DNA from: a virus
IMG/VR virus record: IMGVR_UViG_3300035670_000221
Coordinates: 1 to 60,804 of that record
Reading direction: 5' to 3' (one strand)
Length of the DNA stretch: 60,804 bases
Shown: in pieces, positions 2,471-18,701 of the stretch
Numbering within the stretch: the stretch's first letter is position 1
Layout: every line of letters begins with the position of its first letter
Notes under the pieces: model-generated
The model's database searches: none
What the model saw: the letters and a program-made list of their open reading frames with translations, nothing else
What the model was told of the DNA's origin: nothing
Made by a program: the position numbers and the translations under genes

Positions 2471-2471
2471 T

Positions 2472-5400: not shown

Positions 5401-7040
5401 AAACCTACAGAGGGTACGCACAGGCGCAAGGTCTAATCAAGCAAACATATCAGGCTTATGCTCAGGCTCAGACTCAAATTGAGGCTACCTATAATGCATA
5501 TGCTCAGGCGCAAGCCACAATTGAGCAAATCTATAGAGCCTATGCACAGGCGGGCGCGTGGATAGAGCAGACATATCAAGTATACGGACAAGCGCAGACT
5601 TGGATTGAACAGACAAGTATTCAATATGCTAACGCACAGGCGTATATTGAGCAAACATATCTAGCCTACGCTCAAGCACAGACACAAATCTTTATCCCCG
5701 TTTACACTTATTCCGTATACGGACAGGCGAACGCGCATATAAAGGTAACAGATAACAAGGTTTATGGACAAGCTAATACTTGGATAGAAATAACCGCACA
5801 GGGTTACGCACAGGCTCAGACTCAGATTGAGCAAGCCTATATGCAATACGCTCAAGCACAGGCAATTATATCTGTTGCTAACCAGAAGTATGCTCAGGCG
5901 CAAGCGCAGATCAAGCAGTCGTATCTAGCCTATGCTCAGGCTCAGGTAAACATTAAGCAGACCTACAGAGTCTACGCACAGGCTAATGCTTGGATAGAAA
6001 TTACTTCTGCTGGATATGCTAATGCACAAACAACAATAAAGCAAGCATATCATGGTTACGGACAAGCGTTAGCAGAAATAAAGCAAGCATACCAAGCATA
6101 TGCACAAGCCAATACTTGGATCGAGCAGTCATATCAAGCATATGCTCAGGCACAGGCTTGGGTAGAGCAGACATATGTTGCCTATGCTCAGGCACAGGCA
6201 ACTGTCAAGACTTCGTATCAAGGATACGCTCAGGCTCAGGCAGTCCTTGAAGCTGCCTATAATCAATCTGCACAGGCTCAGGCTAAACTAAATGCGTACA
6301 ATGTTCCTCAATTTGCACAAGCACTAGCACTCATTGCAGGACAGCAGAGTGCCCATGCACAAGCACAGGCAACGATCAAGGCTACAGCCAATGCTTACGG
6401 TCAAGCACAAGGCCAGATCAAAACAACTTATCAGGCATATGCTCAGGCTCAAGCAGCGATCAAGCAAGCCTACCAGTCCTACGCTCAAGCGGGCGCAACA
6501 ATAAAGCAAGCATATCCTGCGTATGGACAGGCACAAGGCACAGTAAAGACTTCGTATCAATCATACGGACAAGCCCAAGGCTACATAAAGGTAACTGGAA
6601 ATCTTGTCTTTGCACAGGCTCAGGCACAAATCAAGCAAACATACTTGGTCTATGCACAAGCACTAGCGACAATTGAGGCTACCTACAGCGCACACGCTCA
6701 GGCTAATGCTTACATAAAGGTAACTGGTAATAATGCCCATGCCCAAGCACAGGCTTACATTGAGCAGACCTATGTTGTTTACGCACAAGCACAAGCCTAT
6801 ATCAAGGGTATTGTCCTAGCATATGCTCAGGCACAGGGCGCAATAAAGGCTACAACTTATGTAGTAGGTCAAGCACAGGCATGGTTGGCTGGACTACAGG
6901 TAGCAACAGCACAAGCACAGGCAAGTATCTTTGCCACAAGCGGCCAATATGGTCAGGCAATAGTTTACATTTATATCCCACAGATTGCTAGACCAATCGC
7001 TGATCTAAGCAACGATGGCTGGGTAAGGACGGTGATATAA
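2472..7040 (+). CDS. Giant YAQAQ-repeat fibre protein 2 (1522 aa)
   Basis: It starts one base after the preceding stop. Residues 1-155 form an N-terminal domain shared with the next gene (identical stretch SRNGTAEIR). Residues ~210-415 hold a beta-sandwich with the signature YDSFTRT followed by GWGTSDTG, seen in many phage and bacterial surface proteins. Residues ~460-680 are a second beta-rich insert, and ~785-915 a third, shared with fibre 3. Residues ~933-1506 are an almost uninterrupted array of about 40 fourteen-residue repeats. The C terminus IADLSNDGWVRTVI matches fibre 1. Alternation of small and polar residues (A-Q-A-Q) suggests beta strands, possibly a solenoid or trimeric fibre shaft; this is inference. 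Likely role: tail or side fibre. Confidence 0.85.
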   Translation: MPILTKAANSHTDVVDTWATQTNAYSTTSDDQYATHTQASRNGTAEIRFGFPSFTTSDIPDGSTINSVKVSAEAAVNQSIGSVIGITIENPSGTDVGTSVETSNTTDTLIECSASTIPSLQNLRDQTVFAHFLYDRANSSTSETVRIDYVSITVDYTPGAVTTVTHAQAQAQILALTTYNTYAQALSLIIIRATNIGQAAALIATTPQYNYVYDSFTRTEAQGWGTSDTGAVWSFPTNDYTSVSDGKAIKSLAYNTFGGLYNVVLPTKWRVYFEFGLSSSPDSSVTIAFIDGVPSTTSSTVANDGKRLGVFIWSDSTIRVITGFNKNNLTAIPSGNPVYQVGETWAYKGFVNWNGTNIVSDYRLENLSTGASYSGTQTGSATTADSLPGHTRISAWSISDINLYLDNVELSRWYDNGYAQAQAQIVTSGVTTYEVSGQSLAQILQSYQVTGQAQALVSSDKLAIRRIYLADTSSSSTNINISIEEPDSRSMLVLAFWGDLTSGTPPTISGGGKTWIAASNSYLLGDSEARIYVTTNVSDASPTNQITVSWSNSDTDYQFQIYEVINGFFAGDFSGDTYTGVNTQLIIDLGYFTSPFYNRLYIGVGGNTSFASTYSFDEVLGTTLDTQILAGYGNGFYYLDYYNDFVSLEQTSIIIDSTGAVESGSIALIALNEKPPRQVAQAQVQITASGGATIVLQSGQSQSQIKQTYKVYAQSNTWIKTIDQRVYAQALTWIKIASIRGYAQANTWIEASYNGYAQAQTEITVPGATKTFYAQANALIGLTTNLYSFIDEEAPDTSDRIISPPQSTNYYEAQLTTASTPDFLQDVIVRFRALAYNYQQASVSVSLREGIISRASRDISLTGTETEYSFNLTPAEIASITDYSDLRIRFTPLDAITDERVVITWVQVQMPQGTGAKVRRAFGQALALISRQVFTFNAYAQAQASIKQTYQVYAQANAHIKTVAVMAYAQAQAQIKQTYRGYAQAQGLIKQTYQAYAQAQTQIEATYNAYAQAQATIEQIYRAYAQAGAWIEQTYQVYGQAQTWIEQTSIQYANAQAYIEQTYLAYAQAQTQIFIPVYTYSVYGQANAHIKVTDNKVYGQANTWIEITAQGYAQAQTQIEQAYMQYAQAQAIISVANQKYAQAQAQIKQSYLAYAQAQVNIKQTYRVYAQANAWIEITSAGYANAQTTIKQAYHGYGQALAEIKQAYQAYAQANTWIEQSYQAYAQAQAWVEQTYVAYAQAQATVKTSYQGYAQAQAVLEAAYNQSAQAQAKLNAYNVPQFAQALALIAGQQSAHAQAQATIKATANAYGQAQGQIKTTYQAYAQAQAAIKQAYQSYAQAGATIKQAYPAYGQAQGTVKTSYQSYGQAQGYIKVTGNLVFAQAQAQIKQTYLVYAQALATIEATYSAHAQANAYIKVTGNNAHAQAQAYIEQTYVVYAQAQAYIKGIVLAYAQAQGAIKATTYVVGQAQAWLAGLQVATAQAQASIFATSGQYGQAIVYIYIPQIARPIADLSNDGWVRTVI

Positions 7041-10000
7041 ATGGCTATTCTAACTAAGGCTGCTAGTTCTAATACAGTTATAACTGGCGTATGGACTCTG
7101 CCAACAAATGCTTATGGTACTACTAGCGATGATCAGTATGCTACGCATACCCAATCGTCCCGAAACGGTACAGCAGAAATAAGGTATGGGTTCCCATCAT
7201 ACAGCATTTCTGATATTCCTGATGGCTCTACTATTAACTCTGTAAAGGTTAGTGCAGAAGTTGGGTTAAATCAGAGTATTGGAAGCGTTATTGATATCAC
7301 TATTGAAAACCCGTCTGGAACCGATGTAGGAAACATAGGGGAGTATTCTGGTAGCACAGCAGATCAAGTCATTGAATCTACTGCTACAACTATTCCAACA
7401 CTACAGAACCTTCGTGATCAAACAGTTTTTGCTCACTTCCTATATGACCGGGCAAATAGTGCAGTCTCAGAAACAATACGCATTGACTATGTATCAATCA
7501 CCGTAGATTATACTGCTGGCGCTACTACAGTAAATGCATCTGCACAGGCACAAACTCATATTAAGATAATTCAGCGAGGATTTGCACAAGCACAAGCAGA
7601 TATAAAAGTAATTGCAAACTCTTATGCTCAGGCACAAGCAGAGATAGCCCCACCATTTATAACTTATAATAATTATGCCCAATCTATGGTTATAATTAAA
7701 GGACTAGATTATGCTTATGATACATTTACACGCACAGTAAATGATGGATGGGGAACAGCAGAAAATGGTGGAGATTGGACTCCTGTAATTACACCTACCT
7801 CATTATATCAAGTTTCTTCGGGAGTCGGACAGTTTATCCTAAATCCCACGGATATAATGGCTATAATCGAGTTAAATGAAATTAGCATTGGTGATATTGA
7901 TTTTCAGGTTGATTTTTATATCCCATCTCTTCCGCCAGCGGATAAATCTAACCCAGCAATAGGTTTAATTTCTAGGGCATCTCAAAACTTTAACATGACC
8001 ACGGGCTGGATTTATTCTGTTGAGGTTGATAGTCTTGGTGCTACTGCTAGCTCTTTTATGGCGTATGTAGGAGGGACACCTGTATATAGCGGGGGTATTG
8101 TAGAAAGTACCTTATCTGCGGCAACATGGTATACAGTCCGAGTACAGGTAGTAAATATTTTAGATGGTACTATAGATTTACGCGCTAAATATTGGGAAAG
8201 GGGTACTCAAGAGCCTGATTGGCAGCATAATATTAATACACTACCTGATCCTATCTACCCTGAGCAATTTGCTCCCGGCTCTATTGCGCTGCTTGCCTCT
8301 GCCGAAGAGACTGGATACACTATCTCAGTTGATAATTTAAAGGCGCAAAGATATATTTCTGCGGGTTTTGCACAAGCCCAAGCAGAAATCGCTGCTGGAC
8401 TTAGTACCTATAATAGTTATGCTCAATCTTTGGCACAGGTTAAACAAACCTATCTAGGCCATGCTCAATCTTTGGGGCAAATAAAACAATTATATTCTGT
8501 CTATGCTCAAGCAATATCAGTAACCGTACAAAAGAGTATGGTATCTGCACAGGCAAGTACTTGGATAAAGCAAACTTATAAAGCTTATGCCCAGGGTCAA
8601 GCACAAATCAAGCAAACATATCGTGCTTATGCTCAAGTACAGGTACAGATTAAAACTACCTATAGGGTATACGCTCAGGCTCAAACACAAGTAGAGCAAG
8701 CGTATCTAGCATATGCCCAAGCACAGTCTCAGGTAAAGTCTCAATACCAGTCTTACGCACAGGCTAATGCCACTATTACAGTACCCTCTGTGGGTGGGGA
8801 TGCCTACGCAAATGCTGGGGCACTAATTGGTAGAATAGAAGACCTATATACAGCAATAGATGAAGTATCAGCAGATGATACAGACTTTATTACTACAAGT
8901 CTACCAACTGGTTTCTATACATATAGGGTAGAACTAGAACCTCTTAATATTCCTGATTGGCCCATTCATCATATCCTGCGGTGGCGCTCAGATACGCGGG
9001 GCACAAGTAATCTAGGTGTTCAACTATACGATGGCGACACCATGATTACAAGTGTGCTTGTAGAACCGGCTAATGGTTTCCAGACATTTGAGTATGCCTT
9101 AAGTGATCTTGAAATCAATTCCATTGCTGACTACTCTTCTCTAATTGTTGAATTTACTTCGACAGATCGAACATATGTCTCTTGGGTAGAATTACAGGTT
9201 CCTTACGGCGCTCCAAAGAAGACTTATAGAAAGTCTGGACAAGCACAAGCATTCATTAGAGTTACCTATACATACAATGCTTATGCTCAGGCTGCTACAC
9301 AAATTGTGCAGTCATACCAGCAGTATGGTCAGGCACAGTCTCATATCGTAAGAACAGAGAATGCTTATGCTCAGGCACAGACTCAGATCGAAGCAACTTT
9401 GTTTGCATATGCCAACGCACAGGCAACAATTCTGCAAACATATCTGTCGTATGCAAATGCTCAGGCACAGATCGAGCAAACTTATCAGCAGTACGCTCAG
9501 GCTCAGGCGCAGATAAGACAAACATATTTGATATTTGCACAAGCACAGGCAAATGTCAAGAATACTTATCAAGCTTACGCACAAGCGCAGGGACAAATAA
9601 AGCAAGCGTACATAGTATTTGCAAATGCTCAGACTTCTGTAAAGAGTATGTACCAGCAGTATGCACAGACACAAGCAAGGATACTTGCATTTAATGTTCA
9701 GGCTTATGGTCAAGCAGCAACAATAGTTGAAGGCTCATTTACACAGACTGCACAGGCACAGGCTAGAATTCTAGCATATAATGTACAAGCATATGCTCAA
9801 GCACAGGCAGAAATTAAGGCAACCTATCGAGCATACGCACAAACAAATACTTGGATAAAGGTAACTTTCCAGGGATATGCAAATGCCCAAACTCAGATCG
9901 AGCAAACTTATCAGGCATGGGCGCAAGCAAATGCTTACATTTTCGTAAGGGTTTTCGTACACGGACAAGCACAAGCCTTCATCATATCTGCTAGAGAAGT

Positions 10001-10814
10001 CTACGCTCAGGCACAGACACAAATCAAGGCTACTTATCAAACATACTCACAGGCAAATGTTTGGATAGCAGGAGCATTTATTCAGTCTGCACAGGCTCAG
10101 GCTCGTATTATAGCGTATGCAGTTAATAATTATGCACAAGCACAGACTCAAATCAAGACAACCTACAAGGTTTATGCACAGGCTAAGACTTGGATCGAGA
10201 TTACAAGCACGGTATATGCACAGGCACGAACAGCAATTGAGGCGACTTACCAAGCATACGCACAGGCTAATGCATATATTAAACTTGTTGTGTATAATTA
10301 TGCACAAACACAGACAATTATCAAGACTACTTACACTCAGTCTGGACAAGCGGGGGCATTAATTGGACAACTATATCAAGTCCATGCTAATGCCCAAGTA
10401 AGCGTCAAGGCAACGGTTATAATATATGCACAGGCTATCGCTTGGATAGAAGTTACTTCTACAGCATACGGGCAAGCGGGCGCATTAATTGTAACTTATG
10501 TTCAGGTATATGGACAAGCAATAACAACAGTACTCGCTACACAGGCAGTATTCGCACAGGCTCAGGTATTCATTGTCAAGGCTACAGCAGTCGGACAGGC
10601 CGCAGCCTACATTAGAATCGTATTTATTCTACATAAATTAATCATAAGCGACACATCAATGACGCTTGTACTAAGCGATGTAGACCCGCTCGATATCAAT
10701 ATTAAAGATGAGCATAAGGATCATGTAATTACAGATACAAAAGAATTTGATATACAAGTATCAGATAGAGCAGGATTAAGTCTCATACTATCTGATAGAA
10801 ATTACTGGGGGTGA
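7041..10814 (+). CDS. Giant YAQAQ-repeat fibre protein 3 (1257 aa)
   Basis: The ATG follows the TAA of fibre 2 with no gap. The N-terminal ~155 residues are a clear paralogue of fibre 2. The YDTFTRT beta-sandwich lies at ~222-435, a repeat block follows, then the insert shared with fibre 2 (~600-724) and a final array (~729-1193). Unlike fibres 1 and 2, it lacks the IAD-GWV-VI ending and instead has about 60 residues rich in 'SD' turns (ISDTSM, LSDVDPLD, VSDRAGL, LSDRNYWG), which may be a different tip or a partner-binding segment. This end gene of the tandem set is followed directly by a small Ig-like gene. Role as virion fibre is inferred from composition and mosaic domains. Confidence 0.85.
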   Translation: MAILTKAASSNTVITGVWTLPTNAYGTTSDDQYATHTQSSRNGTAEIRYGFPSYSISDIPDGSTINSVKVSAEVGLNQSIGSVIDITIENPSGTDVGNIGEYSGSTADQVIESTATTIPTLQNLRDQTVFAHFLYDRANSAVSETIRIDYVSITVDYTAGATTVNASAQAQTHIKIIQRGFAQAQADIKVIANSYAQAQAEIAPPFITYNNYAQSMVIIKGLDYAYDTFTRTVNDGWGTAENGGDWTPVITPTSLYQVSSGVGQFILNPTDIMAIIELNEISIGDIDFQVDFYIPSLPPADKSNPAIGLISRASQNFNMTTGWIYSVEVDSLGATASSFMAYVGGTPVYSGGIVESTLSAATWYTVRVQVVNILDGTIDLRAKYWERGTQEPDWQHNINTLPDPIYPEQFAPGSIALLASAEETGYTISVDNLKAQRYISAGFAQAQAEIAAGLSTYNSYAQSLAQVKQTYLGHAQSLGQIKQLYSVYAQAISVTVQKSMVSAQASTWIKQTYKAYAQGQAQIKQTYRAYAQVQVQIKTTYRVYAQAQTQVEQAYLAYAQAQSQVKSQYQSYAQANATITVPSVGGDAYANAGALIGRIEDLYTAIDEVSADDTDFITTSLPTGFYTYRVELEPLNIPDWPIHHILRWRSDTRGTSNLGVQLYDGDTMITSVLVEPANGFQTFEYALSDLEINSIADYSSLIVEFTSTDRTYVSWVELQVPYGAPKKTYRKSGQAQAFIRVTYTYNAYAQAATQIVQSYQQYGQAQSHIVRTENAYAQAQTQIEATLFAYANAQATILQTYLSYANAQAQIEQTYQQYAQAQAQIRQTYLIFAQAQANVKNTYQAYAQAQGQIKQAYIVFANAQTSVKSMYQQYAQTQARILAFNVQAYGQAATIVEGSFTQTAQAQARILAYNVQAYAQAQAEIKATYRAYAQTNTWIKVTFQGYANAQTQIEQTYQAWAQANAYIFVRVFVHGQAQAFIISAREVYAQAQTQIKATYQTYSQANVWIAGAFIQSAQAQARIIAYAVNNYAQAQTQIKTTYKVYAQAKTWIEITSTVYAQARTAIEATYQAYAQANAYIKLVVYNYAQTQTIIKTTYTQSGQAGALIGQLYQVHANAQVSVKATVIIYAQAIAWIEVTSTAYGQAGALIVTYVQVYGQAITTVLATQAVFAQAQVFIVKATAVGQAAAYIRIVFILHKLIISDTSMTLVLSDVDPLDINIKDEHKDHVITDTKEFDIQVSDRAGLSLILSDRNYWG

Positions 10815-11205: not shown

Positions 11206-11282
11206 GGCCCCGTATCCCAACCGGCAGAGGAAGAGGACTTAAAATCCTTATAGTGTCAGTTCGAATCTGACCGGGGCTACCA
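11206..11282 (+). tRNA. tRNA-Leu(UAA)
   Basis: Cloverleaf with a 7-bp acceptor (G1:U72), 3-bp D stem with 11-base D loop, anticodon loop CTTAAAA (anticodon TAA), T loop TTCGAAT, discriminator A and encoded CCA. The variable loop is only 5 bases, unlike normal bacterial tRNA-Leu, which has a long variable arm. Confidence 0.85.
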
Positions 11283-11285
11283 AAT

Positions 11286-11362
11286 CCCTCCGTACTCCAA
11301 TTGGCAGAGAGGGTAGACTCAAACTCTATTAAGTATCAGTTCGAATCTGATCGGAGGGACCA
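11286..11362 (+). tRNA. tRNA-Leu(CAA)
   Basis: Acceptor CCCTCCG pairs with CGGAGGG; anticodon loop CTCAAAC (CAA); T loop TTCGAAT; A73 and encoded CCA. The variable loop is 5 bases (class I). The 3' acceptor strand, GGAGGGA, lies 4 bases before the next ATG and can act as its ribosome binding site. Confidence 0.85.
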
Positions 11363-11363
11363 G

Positions 11364-12032
11364 ATGAATTCAAAGCAAGCAATCTTGCTTGTTAGTTGGG
11401 CAGGGACAATACATCTAGCAAAGGAATTGTTAGAGACTAGTTTAAAAGATTATAATAGAGATATTGTTGTAGTTATCAATGATATTGCAGCCGTAAAGGA
11501 TGAAGAGACATTATCGTGGCTTATGAATTGTGGGCACAAGGTATTTCCCGTCGAAGGTAATCGCTGGGAAATGGGTGGCCTAGAAGCCATGATTGTCTTT
11601 ACAGGATACGAGGAGTTTATTCTTATTCAGGATACATTGGAAATTAAGGATACTAAAATCTTTGATATCATGTTTGATGAATATCCCGGTAGGAGTGTTG
11701 CCTTCGGTAAAGACTGGGCATGTTATCTAGGAAAGTATCGTAGGCAGATTTTAATGCAGTTCCCGTTACCGCCCGTTCTTAATAAGATGGATGCCTTCTA
11801 CTGGGAGCAAGTGCTTCCAATGGCATATGAAGGAGTTGCGAAGCAATTAGAGGGGCATGAGTTAGCAGTATTATTCCCTGAGTGGCACAACAAGAATCCA
11901 AACAACTACTACGATGAGAAGTTTGGAAGGACTAACATCGTGTTAGACAATCCGTATCTAATCAAGAGAAAGTCAGTTGAGTGGCCCGGTCCATTTAATA
12001 TTAGGGCGAGAGTCTTTCATGGCGATGAATAA
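11364..12032 (+). CDS. Glycosyltransferase-like protein, paralogue A (222 aa)
   Basis: Start chosen at ATG 11364, one base after the tRNA-Leu CCA; the purine run GGAGGG in the tRNA 3' end is the only good ribosome site. The N terminus (QAILLVSWAGTIHLAKELL, then DIVVVIND) looks like the first Rossmann-like half of a GT-A glycosyltransferase. WEMGGLEAM and EEFILIQDTLEIKD follow, and the paralogue at 13068 has REMGAIKVI and DEFWLIQDSIQFIN at the matching places. The D of LIQD may be the metal or sugar-nucleotide site. Length is short for a full GT2 enzyme. Inference: transfers a sugar to a phage or host surface component. The family assignment is tentative. Confidence 0.5.
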   Translation: MNSKQAILLVSWAGTIHLAKELLETSLKDYNRDIVVVINDIAAVKDEETLSWLMNCGHKVFPVEGNRWEMGGLEAMIVFTGYEEFILIQDTLEIKDTKIFDIMFDEYPGRSVAFGKDWACYLGKYRRQILMQFPLPPVLNKMDAFYWEQVLPMAYEGVAKQLEGHELAVLFPEWHNKNPNNYYDEKFGRTNIVLDNPYLIKRKSVEWPGPFNIRARVFHGDE

Positions 12033-12984
12033 ATTACGAGTAGGGTCGTTGTTCTCTGGCGCAGGAATGCTGGACCTTGGCTTAGAGTGGGCCGGTATGG
12101 AAACAATCTTTCAGGTAGAGATTGATCCTTGGAACCAGCATTTGCTAGAGAAGAATTTCCCGAATACAATTAAATACACAGATATCAAGGAAGTAGATTG
12201 TGAAGATTTACCAAGAGTCGATGTTCTCGCAGGAGGATTCCCCTGCCAGCCAGTCTCCATCGCCGGAAAGAAAAAGGCGCAGGAAGATGAAAGGTGGCTC
12301 TGGCCGGAATTTGCTAGAATCATTCGCGGCCTTAGACCAAGATTCGTCCTTGTGGAAAATGTCCCCGGACTACTTGGCAGAGGTTTCGGGGAAGTCCTCG
12401 CAGACCTTTCCACGCTCGGGTATGATGCGGAGTGGACAACTTTTCCAGCAGCCTTCGTTGGCAGCCCGCATCAAAGAGATAGACTATGGCTTGTGGCCTA
12501 CTCCAACATCGAGCGATGGAACGGGTGGACCGGGAACATCGGAGAAGCGTCAGGGAGGAATGAACCTTCGGACAGCAGTAACAATTTGGCCGACACCAGC
12601 AGCGAGCGAGGTTCGTCAGGGCTATCAGAGGCGACCAGCCGGGGCGAGTGGAAACAAGCCTCATCAGAAGTCCTTGACAACGAGAGTGGTGGACGCAGAG
12701 AGGGAAGCACAGAAGATTTGGCCGACTCCAAGGGCATCGGAGTGGAAGGGTACAGGACCGATTGGTTCGTCATCCCACCAGCACCGATTATCACGGAAAT
12801 ATTTAGACGCTACCGTACAGGACGCGGAGCAGATTACTGGGCAACTGAACCCGAATTGGGTAGATTGGCTCATGGGACTCCCCGTAGGGTACACAGATTG
12901 TGGTCACTCGGCAACGGCGTCGTGCCCCAAGTCGCGGAAGTAATTGGTAGATTAATTGTAGACGCAAACAACAAGGCTTCGTAG
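12019..12984 (+). CDS. DNA (cytosine-5) methyltransferase (321 aa)
   Basis: ATG 12019 (or 12025) overlaps the end of the previous gene by about 14 bases. Motifs in order: SAM site FSGAGMLDLG (residues 12-21), GGFPCQPVS with catalytic Cys76, ENV (113-115), the QRDRLW motif (152-157), a variable target-recognition region rich in Ser/Glu, and C-terminal LGNGVVPQVAEVIGRLI. It adds a methyl group to C5 of cytosine, presumably shielding phage DNA from restriction; no cognate nuclease is adjacent. The last ten bases overlap tRNA-Leu(UAG), whose T8-A9-G10 is the stop codon. A 247-codon second frame lies inside it. Confidence 0.9.
   Translation: MAMNKLRVGSLFSGAGMLDLGLEWAGMETIFQVEIDPWNQHLLEKNFPNTIKYTDIKEVDCEDLPRVDVLAGGFPCQPVSIAGKKKAQEDERWLWPEFARIIRGLRPRFVLVENVPGLLGRGFGEVLADLSTLGYDAEWTTFPAAFVGSPHQRDRLWLVAYSNIERWNGWTGNIGEASGRNEPSDSSNNLADTSSERGSSGLSEATSRGEWKQASSEVLDNESGGRREGSTEDLADSKGIGVEGYRTDWFVIPPAPIITEIFRRYRTGRGADYWATEPELGRLAHGTPRRVHRLWSLGNGVVPQVAEVIGRLIVDANNKAS
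12200..12943 (+). CDS. Overprinted WPTP-motif protein inside the methyltransferase gene (247 aa, +1 frame)
   Basis: An uninterrupted frame, shifted by one base, lies wholly inside the methyltransferase gene, with ATG 12200 preceded by AAGGAAG. It encodes QEDSPASQSPSPE, DSSLWKMSPDYLAE, TFPRSGMMRSGQLF, three W-P-T-P motifs and LNPNWVDWLMGLPVGYTDC. From memory, proteins with this motif order are widely annotated in phages and metagenomes, either as hypothetical or as DNA methylase. Each WPTP sits on an [LV]A[YD][ST] motif of the main frame. It is either a true overlapping gene or a conserved shadow of the enzyme; I cannot tell without comparing substitution rates. Function unknown. Confidence 0.4.
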   Translation: MKIYQESMFSQEDSPASQSPSPERKRRRKMKGGSGRNLLESFAALDQDSSLWKMSPDYLAEVSGKSSQTFPRSGMMRSGQLFQQPSLAARIKEIDYGLWPTPTSSDGTGGPGTSEKRQGGMNLRTAVTIWPTPAASEVRQGYQRRPAGASGNKPHQKSLTTRVVDAEREAQKIWPTPRASEWKGTGPIGSSSHQHRLSRKYLDATVQDAEQITGQLNPNWVDWLMGLPVGYTDCGHSATASCPKSRK

Positions 12985-13051
12985 CCCAATAGGTAGAGGC
13001 ATATGCCTTAGGAGCATACAAGTGAGAGTTCGAATCTCTCCGAAGCCACCA
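12975..13051 (+). tRNA. tRNA-Leu(UAG)
   Basis: Acceptor GGCTTCG/CGAAGCC, 3-bp D stem, anticodon loop CTTAGGA (TAG), T loop TTCGAAT, A73 and CCA. Short 5-base variable loop as in the two other Leu tRNAs here. Its first ten bases are also the end of the methyltransferase gene. Confidence 0.85.
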
Positions 13052-13067
13052 AACTTTAGGTGAATAA

Positions 13068-13787
13068 ATGAAACAAGGAATTGTAGTAGTTACATGGAGC
13101 GGGGGCGCTAAGTGGGCTAACCTTTGTCTAGATAGTCTAAGCCCGCTATATGGGCAGTACCCATTCTATGTTGTAGTTAACGACGGCAAGAATGCCCATC
13201 CTAAGTGGATAGAAGAGTTAACCAAGTATTTTAATGTAGTCTTATTAGATGGCGATCATCGAGAGATGGGCGCAATCAAAGTTATTACAGAGCATACAGA
13301 CCTAGATGAATTCTGGCTGATCCAAGACTCCATCCAGTTTATTAATCCGTCCTTTATATGGGACTCATTCGAAAATCACCCTGGAAAAACTTGCACTTAT
13401 TGCAAGAATCCTATGCAGTATTATCTAGGCAAGTGGCAAGCCAGCATCATTAGACAGATGGATAATATTCCTCTACCTAAAACAAAGGAAGAGGCTGTAT
13501 ATCTAGAGCATGAATTCTATAATATGTATAGAGATAAGAAAAATGAACTAGATTATCAACCTCCTGAAATGATTATTTACGATAGCGCATTTAGCCATAA
13601 GAATAAAGAAGCAAATTATATTGAAGAAATTTTAGGCGAGAAAAGACTTAGTGTTGTAGGCATAGGGCTTATCAAGCGCTTATCCCTATCTCCTGAAAAC
13701 TTAGTAATCGAGCCAGATAGGCGACCATTTACAGAAGAAGAATATCTAGAATGGTTAGGTAGTTTCCAAGGATCGCCGCCAAGTTAA
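13068..13787 (+). CDS. Glycosyltransferase-like protein, paralogue B (239 aa)
   Basis: ATG 13068 follows TTTAGGTGAATAA. The layout matches paralogue A at 11364: GIVVVTWSGGAKWANLCLDSL, YPFYVVVNDG, REMGAIKVI, DEFWLIQDSIQFI, then YYLGKWQASIIRQM against YLGKYRRQILMQF. This suggests duplication within the accessory block, split by the methyltransferase and a tRNA. The fold suggestion (GT-A-like nucleotide-sugar binding half) rests on the alternating hydrophobic strands at the N terminus and conserved Asp residues, not on a definite family match. Inference: sugar transfer to a surface or virion component. The stop is five bases before tRNA-Arg. Confidence 0.5.
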   Translation: MKQGIVVVTWSGGAKWANLCLDSLSPLYGQYPFYVVVNDGKNAHPKWIEELTKYFNVVLLDGDHREMGAIKVITEHTDLDEFWLIQDSIQFINPSFIWDSFENHPGKTCTYCKNPMQYYLGKWQASIIRQMDNIPLPKTKEEAVYLEHEFYNMYRDKKNELDYQPPEMIIYDSAFSHKNKEANYIEEILGEKRLSVVGIGLIKRLSLSPENLVIEPDRRPFTEEEYLEWLGSFQGSPPS

Positions 13788-13792
13788 TCTGC

Positions 13793-13869
13793 GCCCCCGT
13801 AGCTCAATGGATTAGAGCAGGGCGTTTCTACCGCCAAGGTTGGGAGTTCGAATCTCTTCGGGGGTGCCA
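13793..13869 (+). tRNA. tRNA-Arg(UCU)
   Basis: Acceptor GCCCCCG with CGGGGGT (G1:U72), D arm GCTC...GAGC, anticodon loop TTTCTAC (TCT), T arm GGGAG TTCGAAT CTCTT, discriminator G, encoded CCA. Reads AGA codons, common in this AT-rich phage. Confidence 0.9.
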
Positions 13870-13887
13870 ATTCTTTAGGAGTATTAT

Positions 13888-14427
13888 ATGATTAAGTTAG
13901 ACATAGGTGCAGGAGGGCCATCAGGCGACGACTCCTTTATATCTATTGATAAATATGTTGAGTCTGCTGATATCAAGGCAGATATGTGGGAGTTGCCATT
14001 CGCTGATGGTGAGGTAGATATAATCTACGCTTCCCATTGTCTGGAACACATATCCAAGTATATGGTAATGCCCACACTTCTAGAATGGAAGCGGGTATTA
14101 AAGGTCGGGGGAAGATTACAGGTATTGGTACCAGACCTTACATGGGCCTGTATGTGGTGGCTGCAACACCCGTATAATAACTGGTGCATGGATATCATCT
14201 ACGGTAATCAGAAGCATGAAGGACAGTTTCATAAGACAGGATTTACTCCTGACATTATGAGATATTATATTCAGGATATTCCAGGCTTAGAAATACGAAA
14301 GATTACTTACTTTGGGGGTACGATAGAAGATATCTATAAGACCTACAAAGAGGGCGATGTACTAGAGCAGCGAGTTATTAACTTTGAAATAGAGAGAGTT
14401 GAAGATGGACAATCAGATATTGTATGA
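13888..14427 (+). CDS. SAM-dependent methyltransferase, class I (179 aa)
   Basis: ATG 13888 has AGGAG upstream. The start, IKLDIGAGG, is a motif I SAM-binding loop; WELPFADGEVDIIYASHCLEH resembles the Methyltransf_11 pattern (acidic residue, then 'hcLeHi'), and WKRVLKVGGRLQVLVPD matches post-motif III. The protein ends after a variable C-terminal cap. The substrate could be a sugar, protein or nucleotide; nearby glycosyltransferase-like genes make a surface-sugar role plausible (inference). Its last bases overlap the start of the next small gene. Confidence 0.75.
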   Translation: MIKLDIGAGGPSGDDSFISIDKYVESADIKADMWELPFADGEVDIIYASHCLEHISKYMVMPTLLEWKRVLKVGGRLQVLVPDLTWACMWWLQHPYNNWCMDIIYGNQKHEGQFHKTGFTPDIMRYYIQDIPGLEIRKITYFGGTIEDIYKTYKEGDVLEQRVINFEIERVEDGQSDIV

Positions 14428-14569
14428 TAGGTATGAAGCAGCAGCCAAGGCCATCAGAGAATGTAAGGTAGCGGATAAGGCGGCTGAGAGAAAGTTTGGC
14501 ATAGCCTACCAGAATCTTGTAAAGGCTGGATTAGCCATGCAGATCAAGAAGAAATACAGGAGTGGATAG
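14405..14569 (+). CDS. Small basic helical protein (54 aa)
   Basis: ATG 14405 overlaps the end of the methyltransferase by 23 bases. The protein is helical and charged (YEAAAKAIRECKVADKAAER, then KKKYRSG at the end) with no Cys pairs or membrane segment. The reading frame ends at TAG 14567, just before the next start, and its end supplies the AGGAG ribosome site of the next gene, which supports translational coupling. No family recognised. Confidence 0.5.
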   Translation: MDNQILYDRYEAAAKAIRECKVADKAAERKFGIAYQNLVKAGLAMQIKKKYRSG

Positions 14570-14570
14570 A

Positions 14571-14753
14571 ATGCCGGTTACAGTTAGAGATGGACAGAAG
14601 GTATGGCCTACTTGTCCAGAGTGTGGGTGCAGACTAAGAAATTTATCTGGCTTTATTTTAACTCACTTTCATAATGATGAAGATGAGGAACATGATGCTA
14701 GAGGATGCAAGTGCCCATTAGTAAACGAGATGTGGGAAATCTTAATTAAATAA
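14571..14753 (+). CDS. Small zinc-ribbon-like protein (60 aa)
   Basis: Start taken at ATG 14571 because AGGAG at 14558-14562 is 8 bases away; an in-frame GTG at 14562 overlaps that site. CPECGCRL near the N terminus and GCKCPL near the C terminus, with a His cluster (THFHNDEDEEHD) between, suggest one zinc site. Possibly a nucleic-acid-binding or host take-over protein; function unknown. Confidence 0.6.
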   Translation: MPVTVRDGQKVWPTCPECGCRLRNLSGFILTHFHNDEDEEHDARGCKCPLVNEMWEILIK

Positions 14754-14758
14754 TTTTA

Positions 14759-14837
14759 CGGGGTGTAGCTCAGTTTGGTTTAGAGCGCGTGGTTTGGGTC
14801 CATGAGGCCGTAGGTTCGAATCCTATCACCCCGACCA
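14759..14837 (+). tRNA. tRNA-Pro(UGG)
   Basis: Acceptor CGGGGTG/CACCCCG, D arm GCTC...GAGC, anticodon loop TTTGGGT (TGG) on stem CGTGG/CCATG, T loop TTCGAAT, A73, encoded CCA. Confidence 0.92.
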
Positions 14838-14906
14838 ATTTCATAACAAAGGAGTGAAGTTTGCTGAAATTCGCCCTAAATAGGTTAGTTTTCAGCATTA
14901 ATAGAT

Positions 14907-15233
14907 ATGGGAAAGAAGCGAAGATTGCGTACTTCGTGGTTGTTCGCTGCTAAGATAACAGGTAATTTTCCATTCGATTTTCATTTTATGCGGGACGAAA
15001 GGACTAGTCAGATTCAATGTTCGTACTGCGGTAGATTTATACCGATAGATACGATGACTAGGGATCATGTATACCCTAAGAGTTTGGATGGTACTTATAC
15101 AACACCTTGTTGTACTCCATGCAATATAGCGAAAGAGGATAAGCGTCCTATAGAGTGGGCACTATTTGCAACGGAAAGCGAAATAGCGTTCGGAAAGGAG
15201 TGGGTGTTACCCAAAAATCGGGCGCAAGATTAG
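14907..15233 (+). CDS. HNH endonuclease (108 aa)
   Basis: CSYCGRFIP, then TRDHVYPKSLDGT, then CCTPCNIAKEDKRPIEW give the two CxxC zinc pairs and the D-H...N core of a small HNH nuclease. ATG 14907 has no clear ribosome site of its own. Upstream, a strong GGAG precedes TTG 14861, which opens a 30-codon frame ending at 14953, inside this gene; translation may couple from it. Free-standing HNH enzymes in phages are often homing nucleases, fitting the position inside a tRNA cluster (inference). The TAG stop directly abuts tRNA-Gly(UCC). Confidence 0.8.
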   Translation: MGKKRRLRTSWLFAAKITGNFPFDFHFMRDERTSQIQCSYCGRFIPIDTMTRDHVYPKSLDGTYTTPCCTPCNIAKEDKRPIEWALFATESEIAFGKEWVLPKNRAQD

Positions 15234-15308
15234 GCTGCGGTAATGTAAAGGTCAACATGACAGTCTTCCAAACTGTAAATCGGAGTTCGATTCCCCGTCG
15301 CAGCACCA
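15234..15308 (+). tRNA. tRNA-Gly(UCC)
   Basis: Acceptor GCTGCGG/TCGCAGC, anticodon loop CTTCCAA (TCC) on stem ACAGT/ACTGT, T loop TTCGATT, A73, CCA. Starts on the base after the HNH stop codon. One mismatch (A:C) in the T stem. Confidence 0.9.
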
Positions 15309-15309
15309 T

Positions 15310-15384
15310 GCGGTAATAGTATAACGGTAATTACATCGGCTTGCCAAGTCGAGGATCGGGGTTCGATTCCCCGTTACCGCTCCA
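15310..15384 (+). tRNA. tRNA-Gly(GCC)
   Basis: Acceptor GCGGTAA/TTACCGC, anticodon loop TTGCCAA (GCC) on stem TCGGC/GTCGA, T arm CGGGG TTCGATT CCCCG, discriminator T, encoded CCA. One base after the previous tRNA. Confidence 0.92.
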
Positions 15385-15416
15385 GCCGCTAAGGTAAACC
15401 AAAGGAAGTGGTAAAA

Positions 15417-15551
15417 GTGACGGAAGATAAGCGGCTGTTAATTACGCAATGGGCGCAAGATGCGGCAACAACTACAAAATATTATAAATTATTTATTGAT
15501 AGTTTGATAGCAATGCAGTTAATCTTTACTCTAGTGCTATTATTTTTATAG
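15417..15551 (+). CDS. Tiny membrane protein in the tRNA cluster (44 aa)
   Basis: GTG 15417 with AAGGAAG upstream. A polar N-terminal half (EDKRLLITQWAQDA) is followed by a single C-terminal hydrophobic helix (SLIAMQLIFTLVLLFL) reaching the last residue. The stop TAG ends two bases before tRNA-Trp. Topology resembles a tail-anchored peptide. Function unknown; possible roles are superinfection exclusion or membrane modification (speculative). Confidence 0.5.
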   Translation: MTEDKRLLITQWAQDAATTTKYYKLFIDSLIAMQLIFTLVLLFL

Positions 15552-15553
15552 AT

Positions 15554-15629
15554 GGGAATGTAGTTTAATTGGTAAAATGCTAGTCTCCAAAACTGGAAGA
15601 TGTAGGTTCGAATCCTGCCAGTCCCGCCA
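15554..15629 (+). tRNA. tRNA-Trp(CCA)
   Basis: Acceptor GGGAATG/CAGTCCC with one A:G mismatch, anticodon loop CTCCAAA (CCA) on stem CTAGT/ACTGG, T loop TTCGAAT, G73 as usual for Trp, encoded CCA. Confidence 0.9.
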
Positions 15630-15643
15630 ACTTAAGGTGTACA

Positions 15644-15799
15644 ATGAAATGTTCTAATGTTAATTGTGCAAAGCAGTCTGATGAGTATTGCAATGTAGTA
15701 TTTACTAAGCCTTCTGATAGTGCCTCTTACACACTTTGTTTAGATTGCTACAGATTAGTTATACTTACAACTAGACGATTAATCGATAAGCCACGGTAG
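15644..15799 (+). CDS. Small zinc-knuckle protein overlapping tRNA-Phe (51 aa)
   Basis: ATG 15644 follows AAGGTGT. Cysteines occur as C-x4-C near the N terminus, a single Cys at residue 16, and CLDC at residues 32-35, a likely zinc site. The stop codon TAG (15797-15799) is bases 8-10 of tRNA-Phe, exactly the arrangement seen for the methyltransferase and tRNA-Leu(UAG). Function unknown. Confidence 0.55.
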   Translation: MKCSNVNCAKQSDEYCNVVFTKPSDSASYTLCLDCYRLVILTTRRLIDKPR

Positions 15800-15866
15800 C
15801 TCAGTTTGGTAGAGCGATAGGTTGAAGCCCTGTGCGTCGGCGGTTCAAGTCCGTCCCGTGGCACCA
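15790..15866 (+). tRNA. tRNA-Phe(GAA)
   Basis: Acceptor GCCACGG/CCGTGGC, D arm GCTC...GAGC, anticodon loop TTGAAGC (GAA), T loop TTCAAGT, A73, CCA. Overlaps the upstream gene by ten bases. Confidence 0.92.
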
Positions 15867-15885
15867 CTTATTTAGGAGTTATAGA

Positions 15886-16164
15886 ATGACGAAAGAGTAT
15901 GAATATGTAGTACCAAATTTAGGTAATACCAGTCTTACTACTGGTACTATAACATGGAACGATTATTGGCCTACTAGTACATATTATACTTATTGGTATC
16001 CTCAGACAATTTATAAGTATCAAGTGTTTTGTCCAAAGTCTAGATGCAAGGGTGTTACTTGGGGCGAGTTAAATACTACGGTAACTTGTCCTAAGTGTTT
16101 CTCTACTATTAAGTTAGTAAGTAGTCCAACACCTAAGCCAGATTACGAAGTCGAAGTGAGTTAA
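15886..16164 (+). CDS. Tyr/Thr-rich protein with C-terminal zinc ribbon (92 aa)
   Basis: ATG 15886 has TTAGGAG upstream; the open frame extends back into tRNA-Phe but has no ribosome site there. The N-terminal half is rich in Tyr, Trp and Thr (YWPTSTYYTYWYPQTIYKY). The C-terminal half has a CPKSRC pair and a CPKC pair, consistent with one zinc ribbon. No family recognised. It lies between tRNA-Phe and a tiny membrane peptide. Confidence 0.6.
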   Translation: MTKEYEYVVPNLGNTSLTTGTITWNDYWPTSTYYTYWYPQTIYKYQVFCPKSRCKGVTWGELNTTVTCPKCFSTIKLVSSPTPKPDYEVEVS

Positions 16165-16165
16165 G

Positions 16166-16240
16166 TTGGACCCAGTAATATTAATATTAATTGCAATAGT
16201 TTGTTTAGCAGCAGCATTCTATATTAGAAAAGAATACTAA
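16166..16240 (+). CDS. Tiny single-helix membrane peptide (24 aa)
   Basis: TTG 16166 starts one base after the previous stop and encodes a peptide that is almost entirely one membrane helix (DPVILILIAIVCLAAAFYI) with a charged RKEY end, as in known phage and bacterial micropeptides. The TAA stop abuts the first base of tRNA-Lys(UUU), the same junction seen for two other genes here, which supports reality. Function unknown. Confidence 0.4.
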   Translation: MDPVILILIAIVCLAAAFYIRKEY

Positions 16241-16317
16241 GGGCCATTAGCTCAATCCGGCAGAGCAAGGGACTTTTAATCCACAGGTTGTAGGTTCAAA
16301 TCCTACATGGCTCACCA
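16241..16317 (+). tRNA. tRNA-Lys(UUU)
   Basis: Acceptor GGGCCAT/ATGGCTC, D arm GCTC...GAGC, anticodon loop CTTTTAA (TTT), T arm GTAGG TTCAAAT CCTAC, A73, CCA. The anticodon stem has only three firm pairs (two mismatches at its outer end). Confidence 0.85.
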
Positions 16318-16400
16318 GATTATTTATGTTAGGTCTGATGTTCCGCGCCTATCGGGTTGGAGGAAGAAGGATAGGGCCAACCAAACCAAAGGGTGATATT

Positions 16401-16487
16401 ATGATTCTGTTAGCGTTTATCTTATTAGTATTATTGTTTGATGCTTTTGCAGTAACGCTAGGGGAGGATACAGCATTACGGGGGTAA
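16401..16487 (+). CDS. Tiny membrane peptide (28 aa)
   Basis: ATG 16401 has AAAGGGTGA seven bases upstream; an earlier in-frame ATG at 16326 lacks a ribosome site. The product is one hydrophobic helix (ILLAFILLVLLFDAFAV) with a short acidic tail. It is the third tiny membrane peptide in this cluster. The next reading frame starts two bases after its stop. Confidence 0.4.
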   Translation: MILLAFILLVLLFDAFAVTLGEDTALRG

Positions 16488-16488
16488 A

Positions 16489-16686
16489 ATGGTACAGATA
16501 TGGATGCTATTCGAAGATAATACATTCGATGCTACACCACCAATAGAACGATACTTGGCTGAATTACTGGTCGCAGATATTGCTGGCGGTAATCCATGGC
16601 AGATTACTTCTAACCCTCCGTCATATAAGTATGTTAAGAAATTAATATTAATTCCTGTAGGGGTGCGTAACTCAAAGGTAGAGTAG
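16489..16686 (+). CDS. Small protein overlapping tRNA-Lys(CUU) (65 aa)
   Basis: ATG 16489 follows the stop of the 28-residue peptide with GGGGG as a possible ribosome site. The protein is mixed acidic and hydrophobic (WMLFEDNTFDATPPIERYLAEL at its start, in part) with no motif I recognise. Its last 26 bases lie inside tRNA-Lys(CUU), a larger overlap than elsewhere, so it may be a chance frame. Confidence 0.4.
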   Translation: MVQIWMLFEDNTFDATPPIERYLAELLVADIAGGNPWQITSNPPSYKYVKKLILIPVGVRNSKVE

Positions 16687-16735
16687 GAGACTCTTAATCT
16701 CTTAGTTGGAGGTTCGAATCCTCTCGCACTCGCCA
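16661..16735 (+). tRNA. tRNA-Lys(CUU)
   Basis: Acceptor GGGTGCG/CGCACTC, anticodon loop CTCTTAA (CTT) on stem GGAGA/TCTCT, T arm GGAGG TTCGAAT CCTCT, G73, CCA. Confidence 0.9.
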
Positions 16736-16737
16736 TG

Positions 16738-16811
16738 GCGACTGTGGTGTAATGGCAACACTTTAGATTGTGGCTCTGACATTTCGGGTTCGAATCCCGA
16801 CAGCCGCCCCA
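16738..16811 (+). tRNA. tRNA-His(GUG)
   Basis: Anticodon loop TTGTGGC (GTG), D arm GTG...CAC, T arm TCGGG TTCGAAT CCCGA. G at 16737 can form the G-1:C73 pair specific to tRNA-His; discriminator C, encoded CCA. One A:C mismatch in the acceptor. Confidence 0.9.
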
Positions 16812-16813
16812 AC

Positions 16814-16888
16814 GGTCCTATAGTATATCGGATAGTATATCTGTCTGTCGAACAGAAGGGAGGGGTTCAACTCCCCTTAGGACCGCCA
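16814..16888 (+). tRNA. tRNA-Asp(GUC)
   Basis: Acceptor GGTCCTA/TAGGACC, anticodon loop CTGTCGA (GTC) on stem TCTGT/ACAGA, T loop TTCAACT, G73, CCA. Confidence 0.92.
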
Positions 16889-16911
16889 TCAATTTAAGTT
16901 AGGAGATTCAT

Positions 16912-17247
16912 GTGAAAAGAATTACTTTGATCGTTGCAGCACTACTATTAGTGGGCGCTTGTAGCGCACCCGTTGTAACTCCGTCACCTACTCCGGTCCC
17001 TATGCCGACTCCACAGGTTATTGTAAAGACTGTTGAAGTCCCTGGACCTACAGTTTATAAGGTTCCTCAAGTTTGTTTGAACGCAATTGATATGCTTGTA
17101 AAAGCATTAGATAGCGAAAATACTTTGTTAGGATTTTACCTAGATGGAAAGGAACCTCCACAGGAAGCCTTTGAAAAGTTTCTTGAAGGCGACCCGGAAA
17201 CAATGTTCAAGATTATAACAGAATGTGTTAAATACCCAAATCCATAG
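16912..17247 (+). CDS. Proline-rich lipoprotein (111 aa)
   Basis: GTG 16912 with TTAGGAG upstream. Signal peptide MKRITLIVAALLLVGAC ends in a clear lipobox (LVGAC, Cys17), so the mature protein would be lipid-anchored. A Pro/Thr/Val-rich linker follows (PSPTPVPMPTPQV, VEVPGPTVYKVP) and then a helical domain with two Cys. It lies just upstream of the endolysin. Small Pro-rich lipoproteins next to lysis genes can be Rz1-like outer spanins; an exclusion lipoprotein is the alternative. Its stop overlaps tRNA-Ile by two bases. Confidence 0.65.
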   Translation: MKRITLIVAALLLVGACSAPVVTPSPTPVPMPTPQVIVKTVEVPGPTVYKVPQVCLNAIDMLVKALDSENTLLGFYLDGKEPPQEAFEKFLEGDPETMFKIITECVKYPNP

Positions 17248-17320
17248 CCCCATCGATTAATGGTTAGATCGTCGTGCTGATAACGCGAAGACCTTGGTTC
17301 GACTCCAAGTGGGGCTACCA
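17246..17320 (+). tRNA. tRNA-Ile(GAU)
   Basis: Acceptor AGCCCCA/TGGGGCT, anticodon loop CTGATAA (GAT) on stem TCGTG/CGCGA, T loop TTCGACT, A73, CCA. Bases 1-2 are the AG of the lipoprotein TAG stop. Confidence 0.9.
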
Positions 17321-17321
17321 T

Positions 17322-17397
17322 CTCTCTATCGTCTAATGGATTAGGACGGCTGTTTCTCAGGCAGCAAATTGGGGTTCAATTCCCCATAGAGGGACCA
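17322..17397 (+). tRNA. tRNA-Glu(CUC)
   Basis: Acceptor CTCTCTA/TAGAGGG, anticodon loop TTCTCAG (CTC) on stem GCTGT/GCAGC, T arm GGGG TTCAATT CCCC, A73, CCA. Confidence 0.9.
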
Positions 17398-17402
17398 CTC
17401 AT

Positions 17403-17476
17403 TGGCCTGTCGTTTAATGGTAGGACACTAGGCTCTGAACCTATCAATCGGGGTTCGACTCCCTGCGGGCCAGCCA
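17403..17476 (+). tRNA. tRNA-Gln(CUG)
   Basis: Acceptor TGGCCTG/CGGGCCA (U1:A72 as common in Gln), anticodon loop CTCTGAA (CTG), T arm CGGGG TTCGACT CCCTG, G73, CCA. The outermost anticodon-stem pair is mismatched. Confidence 0.9.
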
Positions 17477-17491
17477 ATACTAGGAGCGTAT

Positions 17492-18370
17492 ATGAATATA
17501 CCAGATATAACTACAAGTCTATTAACAAATACGGCGTATGGGTACCCTCGCGGTAGCGTGCGCAGAATAAAGCCACTTCTATTAGCGTGTATTCATATTA
17601 CATCTAATCAAAATAATCTTGGAGAAAATGCCGCAACTAATGAACGCAACTATGCTAATCGCGCAGACTCTAACGGCCCTAGCGCCCACTATTATCTTAA
17701 CAGGGACGGGAGTGGCGTAAAGGCTATCGAGCCTGTGAAGTATGCGGCATGGAGTAATGGAGATGTTAATACCCCGAATACAGCGATCTTTGGTTATAAG
17801 ATACTAAAGAATATGTATCTAGATAATGGGTATAATGCTAACGAAGCATTCTTGCTGGAAATAGAAAACTGTGGCTATGGGTCATCGTATCCTATTACTA
17901 GGGCGCAGAAGGAAACAATGGCATACCTATTAGCAACTTTTAGTCTATCACAAGATATTCCAATCAGTAGAGATACGGTATGGGCGCACAGCGATCTTAA
18001 CTCTGCTACTCGGGCTAACTGCCCAATAGCAAAGGCTAGTAAAGAAGCATTCTTAACAGAAATAATTAATCTAGCAGAAGAATATAAGAAAGAAATAATT
18101 GTTGCTCCATATAAAGCACAGATAACAGTTCTTACGGAACAGGTAGAGGTACTAAAGACTGAGGTTATATCTCTTAATTCAAGAATTTCAGAATTAGAGA
18201 ATAAGTTACTTACTGCTCAATTAGACTTGTTAGAGTGCCAGAAGCAACTGTCTGCAACACAGGACGCACTAGATGAAGCTAATAGGCAGATTGCAGCCCT
18301 AGAAGATATAGTAAATGAATACGATGAGGTTAGAGCCTTGTGGACTAAACTCCATGAGATTCTAAATTAA
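17492..18370 (+). CDS. Endolysin: N-acetylmuramoyl-L-alanine amidase with coiled-coil tail (292 aa)
   Basis: ATG 17492 with TAGGAG upstream. Residues ~25-190 are an Amidase_2-type domain: CIHITSNQ (His35), SAHYYLNRDG (His66), VWAHSDLN (His166) and NCP (Cys177); His35, His166 and Cys177 are the probable zinc ligands. It cleaves the bond between MurNAc and L-Ala of peptidoglycan. Residues ~195-285 form a long heptad-like coiled coil in place of a usual wall-binding domain, perhaps for oligomerisation. The stop abuts tRNA-Arg(UCG), and four RNA genes separate it from the holin candidate. Confidence 0.85.
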   Translation: MNIPDITTSLLTNTAYGYPRGSVRRIKPLLLACIHITSNQNNLGENAATNERNYANRADSNGPSAHYYLNRDGSGVKAIEPVKYAAWSNGDVNTPNTAIFGYKILKNMYLDNGYNANEAFLLEIENCGYGSSYPITRAQKETMAYLLATFSLSQDIPISRDTVWAHSDLNSATRANCPIAKASKEAFLTEIINLAEEYKKEIIVAPYKAQITVLTEQVEVLKTEVISLNSRISELENKLLTAQLDLLECQKQLSATQDALDEANRQIAALEDIVNEYDEVRALWTKLHEILN

Positions 18371-18447
18371 CCGCCCGTAGCTCAATGGACAAGAGCGACT
18401 GACTTCGGATCAGTAGGTTGAGGGTTCGAATCCTTTCGGGCGGGCCA
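18371..18447 (+). tRNA. tRNA-Arg(UCG)
   Basis: Acceptor CCGCCCG/CGGGCGG, anticodon loop CTTCGGA (TCG) on stem ACTGA/TCAGT, T loop TTCGAAT, G73, CCA. Begins on the base after the endolysin stop. Confidence 0.92.
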
Positions 18448-18449
18448 AT

Positions 18450-18536
18450 GGATCGGTTGGACAATCTGGTGAGTCCACCTGACTGTAGATCAGGCACAAA
18501 GAAACGCTGTAGGTTCGAATCCTACCCGGTCCACCA
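18450..18536 (+). tRNA. tRNA-Tyr(GUA)
   Basis: Acceptor GGATCGG/CCGGTCC, D arm GGAC...GTCC, anticodon loop CTGTAGA (GTA) on stem CCTGA/TCAGG, a ~13-base class II variable arm, T loop TTCGAAT, A73, CCA. Confidence 0.92.
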
Positions 18537-18538
18537 AT

Positions 18539-18626
18539 GGGGTCGAGTGGACGATTAGTTGCGGTACACGATAAGTCGATACTTAAATACTTTAACATGG
18601 GGTTCGACTCCCCATCGACTCCACCA
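18539..18626 (+). ncRNA. tRNA-like RNA with no D arm and unassigned anticodon
   Basis: The acceptor is 8 bp (GGGGTCGA with TCGACTCC), followed by A and CCA, and the T arm is canonical (TGGGG, TTCGACT, CCCCA). A variable-arm-like hairpin (TTAAA-TAC-TTTAA, 18583-18595) precedes it. Between, no D stem or standard anticodon arm can be drawn; instead 18552-18578 folds as a 10-position stem (nine pairs, three wobble) with a 7-base loop CGGTACA. The 13-bp acceptor plus T stack recalls tRNA-Sec, but there is no TCA anticodon. It could be a decayed tRNA-Ser or a tRNA mimic. Confidence 0.5.
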
Positions 18627-18627
18627 A

Positions 18628-18701
18628 TGCGGGGAGGGCTGGTTGCCCCGGTAAGTCTCATAAGCTTTGCCTTGCGAGTTCGATTCTCGCCCCCGCAACC
18701 A
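18628..18701 (+). tRNA. tRNA-Met(CAU)
   Basis: Acceptor TGCGGGG/CCCCGCA, anticodon loop CTCATAA (CAT), T arm GCGAG TTCGATT CTCGC, A73, CCA. The D arm is short (GGC...GCC with a small loop). The 3' end CCCCGCAACCA matches the typical initiator tRNA end, but the three G:C anticodon-stem pairs of initiators are absent; Ile2 (modified CAU) is also possible. Confidence 0.8.

Follow-up and report, generated by a model that had tools for sequence, protein, structure and literature searches.

Can one stretch of phage DNA, read in two frames, encode both parts of a single enzyme? This question is raised by a C5-cytosine DNA methyltransferase gene located in a viral window of 60,804 nucleotides (the whole stretch of DNA analysed, positions 1 to 60,804 of IMG/VR virus record IMGVR_UViG_3300035670_000221), inside which a second reading frame of 247 codons is open in the +1 register. 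With a probability of roughly 0.83, a single split C5-cytosine DNA methyltransferase has both of its subunits, here called alpha (main frame) and beta (+1 frame), encoded at this locus in two frames of the same DNA. A preliminary description had proposed a second gene overprinted on the methyltransferase; the two-frame coding stands, but instead of an unrelated gene product the second frame most likely supplies the small-domain subunit that this enzyme otherwise lacks. The features of the locus are the following:

12019..12984, + strand: alpha, C5-cytosine DNA methyltransferase of 321 aa (PF00145, 1.7e-46; phrog_363, 9e-76)
12052..12066, + strand: alpha motif I (FSGAG)
12187..12191, + strand: AAGGA, Shine-Dalgarno-like, 8 nt 5' of the beta GTG start (from sequence; consensus match only)
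12200..12943, + strand: beta, open reading frame (ORF) of 247 codons in the +1 frame, nested in alpha; putative small-domain subunit (WPTP repeats and motif IX)
12232..12258, + strand: alpha motif IV (GGFPCQPVS), read in the beta frame approximately as EDSPASQS
12463..12498, + strand: alpha motif VIII (SPHQRDRLWLVA), end of the part of alpha that can be aligned with M.HhaI
12494..12751, + strand: beta WPTP repeats at 12494, 12587 and 12719, over a low-complexity alpha linker
12845..12901, + strand: beta motif IX-like LNPNWVDWLMGLPVGYTDC, over alpha EPELGRLAHGTPRRVHRL
12904..12936, + strand: alpha motif X (SLGNGVVPQVA)

The enclosing methyltransferase ORF spans 11977-12984, with ATG 12019 as the likely alpha start, and beta runs from GTG 12200 to TAA 12943, entirely within alpha and exactly at the coordinates first proposed. 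All the second-frame motifs named in that description are present, including TFPRSGMM and the three WPTP. Each WPTP was said to lie on an [LV]A[YD][ST] motif, and they are indeed offset by one base from VAYS, LADT and LADS of alpha, respectively; the motif IX-like block also lies as described, with the alpha LGNG motif following it. In a window with a GC content of 41%, a +1 ORF of the length of beta arose in one of 20,000 trials in which synonymous codons were permuted within the gene (p about 1/20,000). Moreover, beta matches an independent phage family profile, phrog_1008 (E 2.5e-35, residues 9-237 of 247 aligned).

Selection was examined in nucleotide alignments of 31 disjoint close pairs of relatives. 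Since position 1 of the alpha codons is the wobble position of beta, a ratio of substitutions at alpha position 3 to those at position 1 (a3/a1) below 1 indicates that beta is the better protected frame. This ratio was 3.27 (2.47-4.81) 5' of beta, 1.65 (1.39-1.97) over motifs IV-VIII, 0.59 (0.41-0.80) over the WPTP stretch, where alpha position 1 is more variable than position 3, 0.87 (0.71-1.08) over motif IX, and 11.2 3' of beta. Within the overlap, omega_beta was 0.26 (0.21-0.32), which means that alpha-silent changes altering beta are about four times rarer than doubly silent ones, and omega_alpha was also 0.26 (0.19-0.35); outside it, omega_beta was 0.66 (0.34-1.01), and the lower value inside had a bootstrap support of 0.993. 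Both frames are, therefore, under purifying selection at the amino-acid level in these relatives, and beta is dominant over the WPTP stretch. The third-position variation following only the main frame, which would have spoken against a second gene, does not appear in the close pairs, and stop codons in the second frame of homologues are depleted.

The nested pair is widely distributed. A tblastn search with beta returned 11 phage records, with beta in the +1 frame of a methyltransferase in every record inspected, and scans with a beta alignment yielded 80 viral loci and 80 loci from bacterial genomes of many phyla. The beta ORF overlapped a methyltransferase in the +1 frame in 173/173 loci and later in 282/282, a count that takes in some duplicates of the same places, and a standalone beta gene was searched for and found in none of them; in nearly all of the more than 280 related loci examined, the pair keeps the same +1 register. 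Because loci chosen by beta would be biased, methyltransferases were then selected through the main frame only, and beta was present in 80/80 of them (E <= 5e-17); of 559 confirmed candidates, these 80 lie closest to the window, and they describe its subfamily, not C5 methyltransferases overall. As a negative control, 19/19 C5 methyltransferases lacking beta in the same bacterial genomes had no unusually long +1 ORF and mostly had an obvious motif IX of their own; the beta-bearing methyltransferases in the sampled genomes have a high alpha-profile score and a Pfam match that ends near motif VIII. In evenly drawn genomes, family matches, some of the weaker of which are ordinary methyltransferases, occurred in 26 of 399 in a Pseudomonas set, 14 of 369 in the class of the same genome, and 10 of 296 in the phylum of an Actinoplanes genome; plasmids gave a single match, with one query. 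Judging from these searches, the double reading recurs across hundreds of phages and prophages of bacteria, in line with the earlier proposal that unrelated phages conserve both readings of one segment. One Roseovarius metagenome-assembled chromosome (OX638333.1) is reported to hold five copies of the same alpha/beta locus (L146-L150), perhaps as repeated prophages, and the Paracoccus phage 5-methylcytosine enzymes of about 700 aa known from papers seem to be another group.

What, then, is beta? Alpha contains the catalytic motifs I, IV (PCQ), VI (ENV), VIII, and X, but it matches M.HhaI of the PDB only over residues 5-163, through motif VIII. The main frame had been described as keeping motifs I to X intact, which holds for I-VIII and X but not for IX; no R-x-LTxREaxRLxGFP-like block was found in alpha, whose Pfam match fades past motif VIII, and canonical enzymes in the same genomes have motif IX. 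The IX-like block is that of the second frame. The C-terminal end of beta reads LNPxWVEWLMGxPxGWT, in the window LNPNWVDWLMGLPVGY, which is interpreted as motif IX through single-chain relatives. Three of these (L427, L445, L437) are single ORFs with the order I-VIII, at least two xPTP repeats, a LNPAFAEWLMFWPAGW-like motif IX, and X; the beta profile matches their C-terminal halves (E 6.5e-18 to 2.5e-15), and Mycobacterium and Gordonia phages often carry related methylases. A structural model of L445 is superimposed on M.HhaI from end to end with a Z of 23.7 and a root-mean-square deviation of 5.7 over 255 aligned residues (model range 1-474, end points only). In three further loci (L045, L152, L244), alpha stops after motif VIII, before a complete recognition region, and it is beta that continues, with IX and then a normal motif X. 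L015 resembles them, and about 20 more loci with X in beta came from a targeted scan. Nearly all loci have exactly one motif X; most of the few exceptions are fragments or sequences missed by the strict pattern. Another single chain, L440, has a beta-type motif IX and no clear xPTP repeats in its frame and, therefore, the recognition stretch can differ.

Other arrangements were also observed. In the actinobacterial loci L428 and L429, the xPTP repeats and motif IX are divided between the two frames, suggestive of modules that changed frame. In L352 (1039-2473), the +1 frame past the beta stop appears to encode an HNH endonuclease between alpha motifs IX and X, with alpha open throughout, which resembles the hidden HNH 'ShiLan' element (PMC11855218). 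L384 was considered as a single-chain fusion and rejected and left unused, as its beta frame has stops, behind which decay of the copy or a sequencing error may lie.

Beta could also be a genuine protein with a task of its own, for instance in anti-restriction or regulation, that merely shares the methyltransferase DNA. The contact between alpha and beta is itself a deduction, and the basic, low-complexity stretches of beta and its lack of a fold when modelled alone would fit such a protein. Nevertheless, beta is never found away from a methyltransferase, goes with the alpha-type enzymes whose match to Pfam stops close to motif VIII while the 19 others lack it, takes over motif X where alpha lacks it, and is fused in frame in single-chain methyltransferases. 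An independent function is, thus, quite unlikely. As for frameshifting, beta might be made only as the C-terminal part of a protein in which a +1 ribosomal frameshift joins alpha motifs I-VIII to the WPTP repeats and motif IX; the frame relation fits a +1 shift, and the single-chain relatives show that the fused order works. Yet the beta frame is under constraint well 5' of where a shift would be of use (omega_beta 0.28 over motifs IV-VIII), and constraint ahead of motif VIII speaks against a product made by frameshifting alone. Moreover, many loci carry start signals for beta: among 224 distinct loci, 68 have staggered start codons (NTGAATG), often with one shared Shine-Dalgarno, and 72 an internal ATG or GTG with its own Shine-Dalgarno, all counted as consensus matches. 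On this evidence, which took in no search for slippery sites, frameshifting retains little probability, and beta is probably translated as a separate protein. That the second frame is untranslated and conserved through codon bias, a DNA-level signal, or the demands of the main-frame protein is very improbable: although high-GC genes are often open in +1 and most records are annotated with one frame only, the window has 41% GC and an ORF length hardly expected by chance, ordinary methyltransferases in the same genomes lack such an ORF, and the constraint acts on the beta amino acids rather than on nucleotides as such and exceeds that on alpha over the WPTP stretch. A chance or codon-bias ORF is rejected on the codon permutation, the 80/80 main-frame loci, the 19/19 controls, and the omega values.

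In the split-enzyme reading, alpha would provide the catalytic domain with motifs I-VIII and X, and beta, initiated inside alpha at GTG 12200 behind AAGGA, would provide the small domain, formed by the WPTP-repeat stretch in the place of the target-recognition domain and by motif IX. Both would be made from one mRNA by separate initiation and then assembled into an active enzyme, probably an alpha-beta heterodimer, that probably marks the DNA of the phage itself against host restriction or for regulation.

Enzymes of this kind are already known, but little noticed. M.EcoHK31I alpha/beta (YGGCCR), said to have been described by Lee, Kam and Shaw in 1995 (NAR 23:103), reportedly has subunits of 309 and 176 aa, with the beta gene nested in alpha in another frame and both required in vitro. 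The window would share with it a small-subunit gene located inside the large one in the other frame. According to the published account, M.EcoHK31I consists of two polypeptides, the large one with motifs I-VIII and X and the small one with only IX (PMC3404938), which is the layout of the window. Differences are that the window pair has no known restriction partner or target site, and that its conserved WPTP stretch is in beta, whereas the recognition domain of M.EcoHK31I is predicted in alpha. M.AquI alpha/beta (CYCGRG) is split at the end of the catalytic half, with I-VIII in alpha and IX-X in beta, as in L045, L152, and L244, although in these related loci beta runs back over alpha in the other frame for much of its length. 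The M.AquI-type placement of motif X on the small subunit occurs in about 24 related loci but not in the window, whose alpha keeps X. The single-chain actinobacterial and actinophage methylases (L427, L445; Mycobacterium and Gordonia phages) share with the pair the xPTP repeats, LNPxFxEWLMxxPxGW, and a motif X after I-VIII, but have everything in one frame. Two families labelled DNA methyltransferase, phrog_363 and phrog_1008, are matched by the two frames of the window, and their labels are silent on both being frames of the same gene. Paenibacillus phage Diva has an annotated nested pair of the same kind (gp49/gp50, 'g49 internal gene'), with gp50 annotated as hypothetical and the record proposing no function. 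The literature searched, which covered few subscription journals, yielded no account of the nested family in phages; as far as it goes, the new elements are how widespread the family is, the selection on both frames, and the exchange of modules between them.

Several observations weigh against the split-enzyme reading or its parts. The similarity of beta to canonical motif IX is weak by profile (hhalign, with WLMGxP-RLMGFP as the best column match, P 0.009, probability 5%), although its placement is correct; the argument is, therefore, carried by the loci with X in beta, the single-ORF relatives, and the L445 model. In that model, the predicted local distance difference test (pLDDT) is about 57-91 around IX and X and the repeats are of low confidence; an AlphaFold prediction for beta by itself is poor (mean pLDDT 56; 72-84 in the motif IX region), and the beta profile has no relevant match among PDB sequences. 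Strong beta start signals were recognised in 140/224 loci, not in all, and the likeness to M.EcoHK31I is one of motif layout. Narrow peptide patterns from the window alone matched two viral loci with beta and none with alpha, so that the collections searched hold no close allele of the window and the selection figures rest on relatives. The alpha linker is also somewhat constrained (omega 0.40), and the published prediction of the M.EcoHK31I recognition domain in alpha runs counter to recognition by beta. Target recognition by beta, to which the constraint and the single-chain relatives point here, departs from this view and is a tentative assignment. That the WPTP repeats are the target-recognition domain, that the overlying alpha linker is largely a by-product, and that the recognition stretch, IX, and X have passed as whole modules from one frame to the other in evolution, giving nested, AquI-like, and single-chain versions, has about even chances.

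The methyltransferase is located within an array of 19 tRNA genes among short ORFs (11206-18701), and a tRNA-Leu(tag) gene (12975-13051) overlaps the final 10 bases of alpha, stop codon included. Similar-looking ORFs lie on either side (11364-12032 and 13068-13787), with ILLVSWAGTIHLAKELLETSL and IVVVTWSGGAKWANLCLDSL near their starts; the TTG start listed for the former falls within a tRNA gene, thus ATG 11364 is likelier. Farther upstream (707-10814), three successive ORFs contain very many short YAQAQxxIKxTY-like repeats.

To our knowledge, long same-strand overlaps with both products under selection have rarely been demonstrated in bacteria and phages. Here, the overlap is located in a very common phage enzyme of many bacterial groups that is usually annotated as one gene, and, with natural split, nested, and fused versions at hand, what overprinting costs and how it arose can be put to the test. 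Should beta be required, many phage 'orphan C5 methyltransferases' expressed as one codon-optimised ORF would lack activity, since beta is lost on recoding. If recognition does reside in beta and modules do move between frames, few long two-frame genes known from bacteria and phages would be as widespread as these loci.
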